This document shows, piece by piece, positions 9,540 to 24,591 of a stretch of 34,810 bases of DNA (the first letter of the stretch is position 1; every line of letters begins with the position of its first letter). The notes beneath the pieces are model-generated. The model searched no databases and was not told where the DNA came from. It saw only the letters and a list, made by a program, of their open reading frames with translations. This stretch comes from Flavobacteriales bacterium (GTDB lineage Bacteria; Bacteroidota; Bacteroidia; Flavobacteriales_D; Sanyastnellaceae), in NCBI GenBank assembly GCA_027491075.1, contig JAIXWX010000018.1:1-34810 (forward strand), written 5' to 3'. The position numbers and the translations under genes were made by a program.

Positions 9540-10553
9540 TCAGATGCTGATTGATTCAGCGGCATTTCTCGGTTTATATTTTTTCGCTACGTTGGCAATT
9601 GCGCGAATGTGATCTGGGGTCGTTCCACAGCAGCCTCCAACAATATTGACCACTTTTCTTTGCAAGTATTCTTCTATCAAGGACGCCATCTCTTCTGGGG
9701 ATTGATCGTAATGTCCCATCGCATTTGGCAGTCCCGCATTCGGATATGCACTTACCATGCAAGAGCATTCATCTGAAAGTACTTGTACGTAGGGCTTTAA
9801 TTGTTCTGCCCCTAAAGCGCAGTTGAATCCAATGCTCAATAAAGGAACGTGAGAAAGTGAGATATGAAATGCCTGCGCGGTTTGTCCACTCAGAGTGCGT
9901 CCACTGGCATCGGTAATCGTACCACTGGCCATTATTGGAACAACGATGTTTCTCTCTTCCAAAAGTTCTTCAATGGCGAAGAATGCGGCTTTTGCATTGA
10001 GCGTATCAAATATTGTTTCTACCAATAACGCATCTGCTCCTCCATCGAGTAGTCCTGCAGTTTGCTCTTTATACGCCTCAACGAGCTCATCAAATGTTAC
10101 ACCCCTGAATCCAGGGTCGTTTACATCCGGAGATAAAGACGCTGTTTTATTGGTTGGTCCAAGCGCCCCTGCAATAAATTTTGGGTTTTCTCTCCCGTAT
10201 TGGTTATAGAAACGTTCTCTCGCCCTTACAGCGCACTTGGCTGCTTCAACATTGATCTCGTAGGCAAGGTCTTGCATTTCGTAATCTGCGAGAGAAATTT
10301 TTTGAGCATTGAATGTATTGGTTTCAACGATATCCGCTCCCGCCTCGAAGTATTGAAAGTGGATGTCTTCAATAATTTGCGGTTGCGTAAGGCACAACAA
10401 GTCGTTGTTGCCTTTCACCAAGACCGAATGATTCTTAAAGCGATCACCTCTAAAATCCTCCTCGGTCAATTGGTGCCGTTGAATCATGGTGCCCATAGCA
10501 CCATCGAGTATTAAAATTTTTTTATGAGCCAAATCGGCCAGCTTAACAGACAT
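9540..10553 (-). CDS. metH: Methionine synthase, homocysteine-binding part (split MetH, N-terminal gene)
   Basis: This is the zinc-dependent homocysteine S-methyltransferase module of methionine synthase as a separate 337-aa protein. It starts with the typical [15 protein letters not shown]. It contains [15 protein letters not shown] and the three zinc ligands: Cys245 in GFNCALGA and Cys308/Cys309 in [13 protein letters not shown]. These match Cys247, Cys310 and Cys311 of E. coli MetH. It has no B12 domain and should work with the protein encoded immediately downstream (1-nt gap), either as a stable complex or as the isolated first half. It is the first gene behind the SAM-I riboswitch. Its ATG sits at the foot of an 8-bp hairpin, so translation start may be the regulated step. 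Confidence 0.95.
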
Positions 10554-10554
10554 A

Positions 10555-10583
10555 TCTGATAAAATTTAAATCGCATTATCAGA
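10555..10583 (-). promoter_or_regulatory. Hairpin at the metH start codon, likely riboswitch expression platform
   Basis: TCTGATAA (10583-10576) pairs perfectly with TTATCAGA (10562-10555), leaving a 13-nt loop; the ATG follows at 10553 after one base. No T-tract follows, so it is not an intrinsic terminator and would instead block ribosome access. Its arms repeat the GATAA/TTATC letters of riboswitch helix P1, so strand exchange with P1 is possible. The regulatory role is inferred. Confidence 0.55.
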
Positions 10584-10611
10584 AGCCGGCGAAATTCAAT
10601 GCATGAACTGC

Positions 10612-10719
10612 CTTTATCTCTTCTCGCCATTAGCGAGTTGGAATTGGCACCTTTTCTCTTCATTTGAGCCGGTTGCCAAGACATCATAGGGCCATTTCCC
10701 TCCGTCTTTCTTGATAAAG
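10612..10719 (-). ncRNA. SAM-I (S-box) riboswitch of the metH-metH-metF operon
   Basis: On the minus strand this 108-nt element has the S-box core in order: P1 5' strand CTTTATC (10719-10713), GGAGGGA, TGGCCC, GGCAACC, GGTGCCAATTCC, the P4 hairpin CTCGC/GCGAG, and P1 3' strand GATAAAG (10618-10612). P1 is a perfect 7-bp helix. SAM-I aptamers bind S-adenosylmethionine and usually switch off methionine/SAM genes. The operon encodes methyl-THF and methionine synthesis, so feedback by SAM is the expected logic. The distance to the ATG is 58 nt. The only hairpin in that interval lies at the start codon. Confidence 0.95.
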
Positions 10720-10724
10720 CGATG

Positions 10725-10732
10725 CAAAAGTA
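10725..10732 (-). promoter_or_regulatory. -7 box of the riboswitch/metH operon
   Basis: TACTTTTG on the minus strand matches TAnnTTTG exactly and ends 5 nt before the first base of riboswitch helix P1, so transcription would begin at or just before the aptamer. A TTTG at 10760-10757 could be the -33 element, but the 24-nt spacing is slightly long. Confidence 0.65.
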
Positions 10733-11806: not shown

Positions 11807-13066
11807 ATGTCATATTTATTTACTTCTGAATCGGTATCAGAAGGACATCCTGATAAAGTTGCAGACCAAATTTCGGATGCAATCATTGATCACTTTTTGG
11901 CTTTTGACCCAGAGAGTAAAGTTGCCTGCGAAACCTTGGTTACAACTGGTCAAGTGGTACTTGCCGGAGAGGTGAAGTCGAAGACTTACCTCGATGTTCA
12001 ATCTATATCTCGTGAGGTTATTAGAGAAATAGGCTATACCAAGAGTGAATATATGTTTGAGGCAAACTCATGTGGGATACTGTCCGCAATTCATGAGCAG
12101 TCACCGGATATTAATAGAGGTGTAGAAAGAAAGAAAAAAGAAGATCAAGGGGCTGGCGACCAAGGAATGATGTTTGGGTATGCCACGAAAGAAACGGATA
12201 ATTACATGCCGCTTCCTTTGGAGCTTTCTCACATGTTATTGAGAGAACTTGCTGACATTAGAAGAGAAGGAAAAGTGATGACGTACTTGCGTCCAGACGC
12301 GAAGAGTCAAGTGACTGTTGAGTATGGAGACAATCACCAACCCATTGGTATTAGTGCTGTAGTAATTAGTACACAGCACGATGAGTTTGATAAGGACGAG
12401 AAGAAAATGCTCGCGGCGATTAAAGCTGACGTGGAAAAGGTCCTCATACCTCGCATTTTAAAGAAGTTACCTACGCGTATTCAAAAGTTGTTCAATACAA
12501 AGTATGCACTCCATGTGAATCCGACAGGGAAATTTGTGATCGGTGGCCCACATGGCGATACTGGTTTGACAGGCAGAAAAATTATCGTAGATACCTATGG
12601 AGGAAAAGGCGCGCACGGTGGCGGTGCTTTCTCTGGAAAAGACCCTAGTAAAGTGGACCGCTCCGCTGCATACGCAACAAGACACATCGCAAAAAACCTT
12701 GTAGCTGCAGGAGTATGTGACGAAGTATTGGTACAAGTAGCGTATGCCATCGGTGTAGCCCGTCCGGTAGGTCTTTATGTAAACACCTACGGCACGGCTA
12801 AAGTGAATATGACTGACGGAGAAATCGCGCGCATCATAGACAAGATTTTTGATATGCGTCCTTATGCGATCGAACAACGTTTTAACTTAAGAACTCCTAT
12901 CTACAAGGAAACGGCTGCCTATGGACACATGGGTAGAAAATGTGTAGTTGCTACTAAAAAGTTTTCAGATGGCAATGGAAATAAGAAGTCCATTAAGGTA
13001 AAGCTATTCCCTTGGGAAGAGTTGAACTATGTTGCTGAAATTAAGAAGGCGTTTAAGATTAAATAA
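11807..13066 (+). CDS. metK: S-adenosylmethionine synthetase
   Basis: MetK joins methionine and ATP to form SAM, releasing phosphate and pyrophosphate, as a cytoplasmic tetramer using Mg2+ and K+. The N-terminal [20 protein letters not shown] holds the ATP/metal residues. [12 protein letters not shown] is the adenine/methionine-binding loop. [18 protein letters not shown] is the phosphate-binding signature. The length of 419 aa is close to the family norm, with a slightly longer C-terminal end as usual in this phylum. It lies near the riboswitch-controlled metH-metF operon but on the opposite strand. Its product SAM is the ligand of that riboswitch, so the region forms a feedback pair. It ends at a strong terminator. 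Confidence 0.98.
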
Positions 13067-23898: not shown

Positions 23899-24591
23899 AT
23901 GAAAAGAAAGTGGATAAAACGTTTTGCTATTCTCTCCATTGGTCTGGTATTGGCCTTTATAGGCTATAGATATCGTTATGATCTCATCGATGTATACCGT
24001 GATTGGACGGGTTGGCAAATAGAAGAGAATCCTCGTCCGGAGGGCGTTTCTACACTAGAATGGGCAGAGATGAATTACAAAGAGGAGATGCTTGAACTTT
24101 CTAAAAAGTATGATGTGCCTTATGAATATCTAATGGCATTGCTTGTGCTGGAATGCAGTGGTGAACGACCTGCCGGGCATCGGTACGAACCCGGTATAAT
24201 GAAGAAACTTGAGAAAGTAAAAGCAGGAACGTACCGCAAGTTTGAAAACATATTTCCGCATGATTTGCAAGGATGTGACGATTCCTGTTTAGAAAATCTT
24301 GCCACCAGTTGGGGGCCTTTTCAGCTCATGGGCTACAAAGCCATTCCTCTTGGAGTAAACGTCTCTGAACTTCGAGATGAAGAAGAGGCCGCTGAAATTG
24401 GCGTCAAATGGATTGAACAAGAGTATGGCCATTTTCTCAAGAAGAAAAAATATAAGGATGCTTTCCATTATCATAATACAGGAGATCGTTTCCCGCTGAA
24501 TGGAAAATCAAAAACGCATCATCCGTATTACGTTTCGGATGGTCTGCGATACATGAAATATTTCGAAAAAAGAAAGGTCCTAGAAAATTAG
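23899..24591 (+). CDS. Membrane-anchored lysozyme-like/transglycosylase-like protein
   Basis: An N-terminal basic stretch and one membrane segment (residues ~8-23, RFAILSIGLVLAFIGY) anchor a ~205-aa periplasmic domain. It has lysozyme-superfamily features: VPYEYLMALLVLECSG, with a Glu in the position of the catalytic acid, and SWGPFQLMGYKAIPLG, like the SxxGxxQ block of soluble lytic transglycosylases. A CDDSC pair may form a disulfide. It probably cleaves or binds peptidoglycan; family assignment is by motif only. Its start is 41 nt from the divergent WYL gene with a palindrome between. Its TAG stop overlaps the TAA of the convergent DUF3127 gene within four bases. It has no strong homologue I can name. 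Confidence 0.6.
   Translation: MKRKWIKRFAILSIGLVLAFIGYRYRYDLIDVYRDWTGWQIEENPRPEGVSTLEWAEMNYKEEMLELSKKYDVPYEYLMALLVLECSGERPAGHRYEPGIMKKLEKVKAGTYRKFENIFPHDLQGCDDSCLENLATSWGPFQLMGYKAIPLGVNVSELRDEEEAAEIGVKWIEQEYGHFLKKKKYKDAFHYHNTGDRFPLNGKSKTHHPYYVSDGLRYMKYFEKRKVLEN

Follow-up and report, generated by a model that had tools for sequence, protein, structure and literature searches.

How might a riboswitch control translation where there is no Shine-Dalgarno (SD) sequence to hide? Bacteroidota mostly lack one, and structure around the start codon tunes their initiation (according to excerpts of PMC6847099), so that riboswitch control of translation in these bacteria is an open point. The question arises at the metH leader of a Flavobacteriales bacterium (family Sanyastnellaceae, assembly GCA_027491075.1), which lies in a window of 34,810 nucleotides, by which we mean the whole stretch analysed (contig JAIXWX010000018.1, positions 1 to 34,810). 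An earlier note on this DNA had proposed a SAM-I riboswitch with a hairpin at the start codon as its expression platform. Following our analysis, we consider it likely that this leader is a SAM-I riboswitch by which abundant S-adenosylmethionine (SAM) shuts down translation of a split metH-metF operon, and that it works by an exchange of partners of the 5' strand of its P1 helix.

The aptamer and its operon

A search with the covariance model of the Rfam SAM family (RF00162, cmscan), a check suggested by the earlier note, returned a match at 10720-10611 of the reverse strand, which scores 82.3 bits (gathering score 44.4, E 3.7e-18) and spans the whole model (1-108), in agreement with the complete S-box aptamer claimed at 10719-10612. 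It is the only RF00162 match in the whole 3.02-Mb genome, and the genes that follow it on the same strand belong to methionine/SAM metabolism (metH, metH, metF), as befits a member of this family. The downstream operon consists of a split methionine synthase, with metH in two ORFs, followed by metF (Table 1). The metH leader RNA probably senses SAM. A protein with a Por_Secre_tail domain adjoins the metH locus according to the domain search, and the SAM synthetase gene metK (11807-13066, forward strand), to which no SAM-I aptamer belongs, is divergently oriented at a distance of about 1.1 kb from the switch.

Table 1. Positions of the features of the metH leader and operon in the window
Feature	Position	Strand	Evidence
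Promoter -7 box TACTTTTG, TAnnTTTG type, ending 4-5 nt before P1	10725-10732	-	Sequence
SAM-I (S-box) aptamer, RF00162, full-length	10611-10720	-	cmscan 82.3 bits, whole model
P1 5' strand CTTTATC, pairing with 10618-10612 in P1	10713-10719	-	Constrained folds
P1 3' strand GATAAAG	10612-10618	-	Covariance-model match, constrained folds
Anti-P1 segment TCTGATAATGCGA	10571-10583	-	MFE and constrained folds, duplex, covariation in relatives
Alternative anti-P1 helix	10717-10712 with 10581-10576	-	Constrained folds; duplex p=0.010
Outer helix 5' strand GCCGGCT	10584-10590	-	Constrained fold
Start hairpin 3' arm TTATCAGA, ending 1 nt before ATG	10555-10562	-	Sequence, hairpin count, constrained folds
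Outer helix 3' strand AGCTGGC, codons 4-6; AUG enclosed in 11-nt bulge (10554-10544)	10537-10543	-	Constrained fold
metH N-terminal part, homocysteine S-methyltransferase domain, 337 aa	9540-10553	-	PF02574, E 1.4e-95
metH remainder: pterin-binding, B12-binding, activation domains, 899 aa	6866-9565	-	PF00809, PF02607, PF02310, PF02965
metF, methylenetetrahydrofolate reductase (MTHFR), 317 aa	5908-6861	-	PF02219, E 8.1e-69

The start codon in two predicted competing folds

As the earlier note had described, the metH ATG (10553-10551) is preceded at a distance of one base (10554) by a perfect 8-bp hairpin, in which TCTGATAA (10583-10576) pairs with TTATCAGA (10562-10555). Its arms do have letters in common with P1 (GATAA/TTATC), and no T run follows the hairpin in the window leader, both in line with that note, except that the gap between aptamer and hairpin measures 28 nt (10611-10584) and not the 29 nt given there. 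The sequence before the metH ATG contains nothing SD-like. Nor did a detector of hairpins followed by T runs find an intrinsic terminator between aptamer and metH in the window, which sets the leader apart from terminator-type switches and led us to reject a terminator platform of the Firmicutes kind; the comparison with Firmicutes SAM-I switches drawn in the note was misplaced, the genome being one of Bacteroidota, as the -7 box upstream of P1, the adjoining Por_Secre_tail protein and the titles of most of 80 named metH relatives indicate. We sampled 223 ORFs that start with ATG and are 180 aa or longer from 374 kb of the same genome (the window and 20 further stretches). Only three of them, metH included, possess a perfect Watson-Crick hairpin of at least 7 bp ending between -8 and +3 of the ATG; in nine the hairpin has 6 bp, and in the remaining 211 at most 5 bp. 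The window hairpin, a putative sequestor over the start region, also stands out against dinucleotide shuffles (p=0.01). Elsewhere in the window, the gene start of 23899-24591 (forward strand) carries a perfect 9-bp hairpin (TCCCGAAAT.../ATTTCGGGA), likewise ending one base before its ATG.

The 8-bp hairpin makes up half of the predicted start structure, as with P1 formed 10590-10584 pairs in addition with 10543-10537. The local fold of -37 to +24 has an energy of -17.2 kcal/mol; the local hairpin that is left once the 5' arm is taken away has -3.3 kcal/mol. In the minimum free energy fold of the window leader, P1 is not formed and its 5' strand is instead paired with the 5' arm of the start hairpin, a duplex with p=0.010 against dinucleotide shuffles. 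In the predicted ON state, the anti-P1 segment pairs with 10722-10709 (TCGC, TTATCA and GA, with one mismatch and one bulge), and nucleotides 10583-10576 are thus used twice, as part of this segment and as the 5' arm of the start hairpin.

The following sequence of events would result. At low SAM, the anti-P1 segment (10583-10571) would take the P1 5' strand, that is, the putative 5' end of the mRNA, and by this pairing prevent the start hairpin, making the AUG region easier to open. At high SAM, P1 would be held and the anti-P1 segment left free to fold back onto the bases just before the AUG, a closure which in the window may be assisted by the outer helix reaching into codons 4-6.

We folded the leader with and without P1, as proposed in the earlier note. 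The fold with P1 plus hairpin and the anti-P1 fold have energies of -55.7 and -56.3, -54.4 and -55.8, and -53.9 and -53.8 kcal/mol for transcripts starting at 10725, 10723 and 10721, respectively, and with the latter two starts an unconstrained fold that has the start hairpin and lacks P1 equals or beats both states. We therefore rejected these energies as proof, as they lie within about 1.5 kcal/mol of each other and depend on the assumed start. Opening the region from -12 to +15 costs 12.1 kcal/mol with P1 and 5.6 kcal/mol with anti-P1, as the scheme predicts, whereas the unpaired probability of -10 to +6 contradicts it in the window (0.51 with P1, 0.39 with anti-P1), because the AUG lies in a bulge in one fold and within a weak local hairpin (-3.3 kcal/mol) in the other. 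The opening cost, a footprint measure, was added after this contrary result.

Covariation and terminators among relatives

SAM-I matches were obtained in 42 of 60 relatives, in 57 of 114 genomes of the window's family and in 306 of 399 genomes drawn from the order. A cruder search by text pattern located the aptamer in 17 of 80 named metH loci, mostly of Bacteroidota by their titles with a few naming Proteobacteria; since the pattern is less refined than the covariance model, the other 63 loci should not be read as aptamer-less. From 129 parsed leaders, 15 without an identified metH start were dropped and 114 preceding metH were kept, the start codons being assigned by rule (the ATG before a DGAMGT motif) and not by annotation. 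Two of the contigs, L133 and L166, are titled Chryseobacterium gleum MAGs; these titles look mislabelled, as the leaders match the family genomes G016 and G069.

The detector found a terminator in 17 of the 114 metH leaders, four of them weak calls in Hymenobacter. All 17 belong to the 58 metH leaders from outside the family, and none was detected in the 56 family metH leaders, so that the search for terminators in relatives left the reading of the earlier note unrefuted. The 97 terminator-less metH leaders were reduced to 58 non-redundant ones (34 from the window's family, 24 from elsewhere), on which the comparisons below rest, and a terminator-type set was assembled from 20 leaders of any gene, leaving out the four weak Hymenobacter calls. 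Other families of the order do contain SAM-I leaders with hairpin-plus-T-run terminators. Furthermore, six family genomes have two SAM-I switches each, a terminator-less metH leader and a second, non-metH leader with a terminator (metH/second: L041/L020 in G003, L046/L019 in G007, L039/L007 in G010, L037/L023 in G013, L044/L017 in G026 and L036/L022 in G032); the gene behind the second leader is presumably one for a PLP enzyme of Cys/Met metabolism, which its start resembles. By eye, some terminator loops repeat P1-like letters.

For a swap test, the P1 5' strand of each of the 58 leaders was paired with its own post-aptamer region and with those of the other leaders. Pairing with the own region was far stronger (-9.89 versus -6.69 kcal/mol; z -11.3; 0 of 20000 permutations), beat dinucleotide shuffles at p<0.05 in 29 of 58 leaders, and was recovered separately in the 34 family leaders (z -6.5, reversed control -3.5) and the 24 others (z -6.8, control -0.8). 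Over all 58 leaders the reversed-strand control gave z -3.9, with 3 of 58 beating shuffles, which implies that common base composition explains part of the effect. The P1 3' strand, in contrast, gave no signal in the same leaders (z 0.2; 2 of 58 beating shuffles), and a second computation returned z -11.4 for the 5' strand and z -0.1 for the 3' strand. Among terminator-type leaders, the 5' strand reached z -1.7 in 14 preceding metH (2 of 14 beating shuffles), and in the set of 20 leaders of any gene both strands had z -0.9. The exchange between P1 and the start hairpin envisaged in the earlier note is supported for the P1 5' strand, which pairs with the 5' arm of the start hairpin, and not for the 3' strand; the classical exchange through the latter was discarded, as it shows no signal in the terminator-less leaders and none of significance in the 20 terminator-type ones.

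This complementarity is kept while the letters change. The exact complement of the six-base stretch n2n3n4GAA, half of it within P1, is present in 21 of the 58 leaders themselves, whereas swapped partners give 5.6 on average (0 of 20000) and pairings with differing letters 96 of 2790. Nine different trinucleotides (CAA, CGA, CGC, GAA, CCA, TTA, AAA, TAA and TAC) have retained their partners. The window leader falls outside this group of 21, whose complement is uninterrupted, because its anti-P1 helix contains the bulge, besides the mismatch.

The start hairpin also covaries, the outcome on which the earlier note had made its reading depend, strongly in the family and weakly elsewhere. Over the 58 leaders, pairing with -12 to +6 beats swaps with z -7.9, where the reversed control has -3.2 and the coding control +1.2. 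The 34 family leaders have z -6.9 (control -2.4) and the 24 others z -2.2 (control -0.8), and individually the pairing beats shuffles (p<0.05) in only 8 of 58. Within the family, though not outside it, pairing with codons 2-11 beats swaps as well (z -3.5). In several relatives (L010, L025, L047, L048 and L065-L067) the AUG itself falls within the 3' arm. An overlap of at least 4 nt between the 5' arm and the anti-P1 segment is seen in 43 of 58 leaders, a modest excess over the 33.2 given by random placement. Both alternative helices thus covary across relatives and, as they employ the same nucleotides, the putative antisequestor is mutually exclusive with P1 and with the sequestor. As a separate observation, a short linker hairpin often follows directly after P1 in family metH leaders (first 26 nt, mean z -1.59; 14 of 34 below -1.5).

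Access to the start region could be compared between states in those leaders that were usable, namely 26 of 34 family and 20 of 24 other leaders for -12 to +15, 19 of 34 and 15 of 24 for -15 to +20, and 33 of 34 and 21 of 24 for the unpaired probability. With P1 forced, opening of -12 to +15 cost more in 25 of the 26 family leaders and in 18 of the 20 others. As freeing any segment adds pairing, shuffled start regions served as the control: the mean difference was 4.87 for real versus 2.15 for shuffled regions in the family and 3.30 versus 1.81 in the others, and none of 20 shuffle sets reached the real value in either group, whereas for the window on its own the excess (6.5) was matched by 1 of 20 shuffles. 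The unpaired probability of -10 to +6 was lower with P1 in 28 of 33 family and 18 of 21 other leaders, with no difference in a control stretch.

Upstream of P1, the box TACTTTTG at 10732-10725 is what we take to be the Bacteroidota kind of -7 box. A characteristic -7 promoter element is spoken of in excerpts of PMC6847099. Of the 34 non-redundant family metH leaders, 33 have a TAnnTT[TCA][GA] box in the 50 nt preceding P1, where shuffles would give 4.3; in 32 of these the distance to P1 is 3-6 nt, and the median distance in the 24 non-family terminator-less metH leaders is 18.5. From the short spacing in the family we infer that transcripts begin with the P1 5' strand, and in the window transcription would start at about the first base of P1. 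In other leaders, the stretch between promoter and SAM-I aptamer holds a boxA-like motif, GTTC[ACT]TT, about 5-10 nt upstream of P1 (L002-L004, L006-L009, L016, L017, L019, L020, L022, L023 and others). Of the 20 terminator-type leaders 15 contain it (0.9 expected), as do 13 of the 24 terminator-less metH leaders from outside the family (0.8 expected), but none of the 34 family metH leaders has it in this position; the 16S leader of the window's own genome carries AAAGTTCTTTGAAATA 71 nt before the 16S start, and all 26 readable TPP leaders are devoid of the motif. A literature search on boxA, riboswitches and Bacteroidetes yielded no matching description, judged by titles and the openings of abstracts.

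Alternatives, known systems and significance

SAM binding, the direction of the switch and its action on translation are predictions from sequence, and other readings of the same leader must be weighed. The main rival places control at transcription, with the start hairpin, or Rho entering the untranslated leader, terminating when SAM is bound. Terminators do exist in SAM-I leaders of other families of the order and in the second leaders of the six family genomes, terminators without a U-tail may exist, as Barrick and Breaker cautioned (excerpts of PMC2258182), and Rho-dependent loss could follow from blocked translation. We nevertheless judge this rival unlikely, as neither the window nor any of the 56 family metH leaders has a hairpin followed by a T run by our detector, and in many relatives the 3' arm of the structure lies at or over the start codon, where a terminator would have no reason to be.

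A functional aptamer might also work by another route, for instance through the P1 3' strand or by direct occlusion, with the start hairpin as a fixed damper of translation. The near-equal energies of the P1 and anti-P1 folds in the window, which shift with the transcript start, and the weak conservation of the start hairpin alone outside the family would suit such a view, yet the P1 3' strand has no complementarity whereas that of the 5' strand is strong and accompanied by compensatory changes, which renders it rather improbable. Least of all do we favour that hairpin and complementarity arose by chance next to an aptamer that is a functionless relic. Taken one by one, no more than 8 of the 58 start hairpins do better than shuffles, and half of the family genomes (57 of 114) have no SAM-I match, but the aptamer is full-length and above threshold, the promoter has kept its position, the genes belong to the pathway and both helices covary, making a relic very hard to believe. 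The preferred reading hence continues to be translational control through the P1 5' strand.

In the terminator-type S-box of Bacillus subtilis, the P1 3' strand is the one used. The window leader resembles this switch (RF00162) in having a whole-model aptamer above the gathering score upstream of methionine genes, and differs from it in lacking an intrinsic terminator and in that the strand changing partners is the P1 5' strand. Closer in mode of action is SAM-I Xcc of the Xanthomonas campestris met operon, which acts mainly on translation and with SAM holds the start codon in a platform hairpin (excerpts of PMC7270179), as is predicted here. According to the same excerpts, however, SAM-I Xcc sequesters SD and AUG and its platform binds tRNA-fMet, whereas the window leader has no SD-like sequence. 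Translation attenuation has been predicted as the commonest mode outside Firmicutes, an assignment made by default in the absence of a terminator (excerpts of PMC2258182). The proposed logic is that of sequestor/antisequestor OFF switches, in which a ligand-stabilised P1 breaks the antisequestor and the sequestor forms (excerpts of PMC2258182 and PMC10907184); the sequestors described there cover the SD, whereas that of the window covers the start-codon region of an SD-poor mRNA, and its antisequestor strand would be the mRNA 5' end. Mutually exclusive pairing of P1 and platform is likewise shared with the P1-helix-regulated riboswitches of PMC11477058, whose third criterion, in the excerpts of that review, has the P1 3' strand form the exclusive structure. 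Leaders of the window type depart from it by using the 5' strand (z -11.3 and -11.4 versus 0.2 and -0.1), and a P1 switch run from the 5' strand thus falls outside the definition given in this recent review, as far as those excerpts go.

Translational SAM-I switches are already known, and one run through the P1 5' strand in SD-poor bacteria seems to add a new variant to them; the open-licence literature yielded no description of such a start-codon platform in Bacteroidota, a weak kind of absence. Whether we are dealing with a distinct SAM-I platform across Bacteroidota, in which the P1 5' strand switches, its partner doubles as the arm hiding an SD-less start codon, and in the window's family the strand would sit at the mRNA 5' end, seems to us an evenly balanced matter.

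The metH leader makes riboswitch control without an SD directly testable with a short, well-defined RNA, and the genomes with two SAM-I switches provide a natural comparison of one aptamer class with two platforms within single genomes. The layout in which a sensor strand trades partners at the start-codon hairpin is probably common to many Bacteroidota and differs from the textbook version. If the proposed mechanism is true, bacteria without SD-led initiation would have remodelled a standard switch so that it centres on the start codon, and its moving part would be the 5' end of the mRNA.
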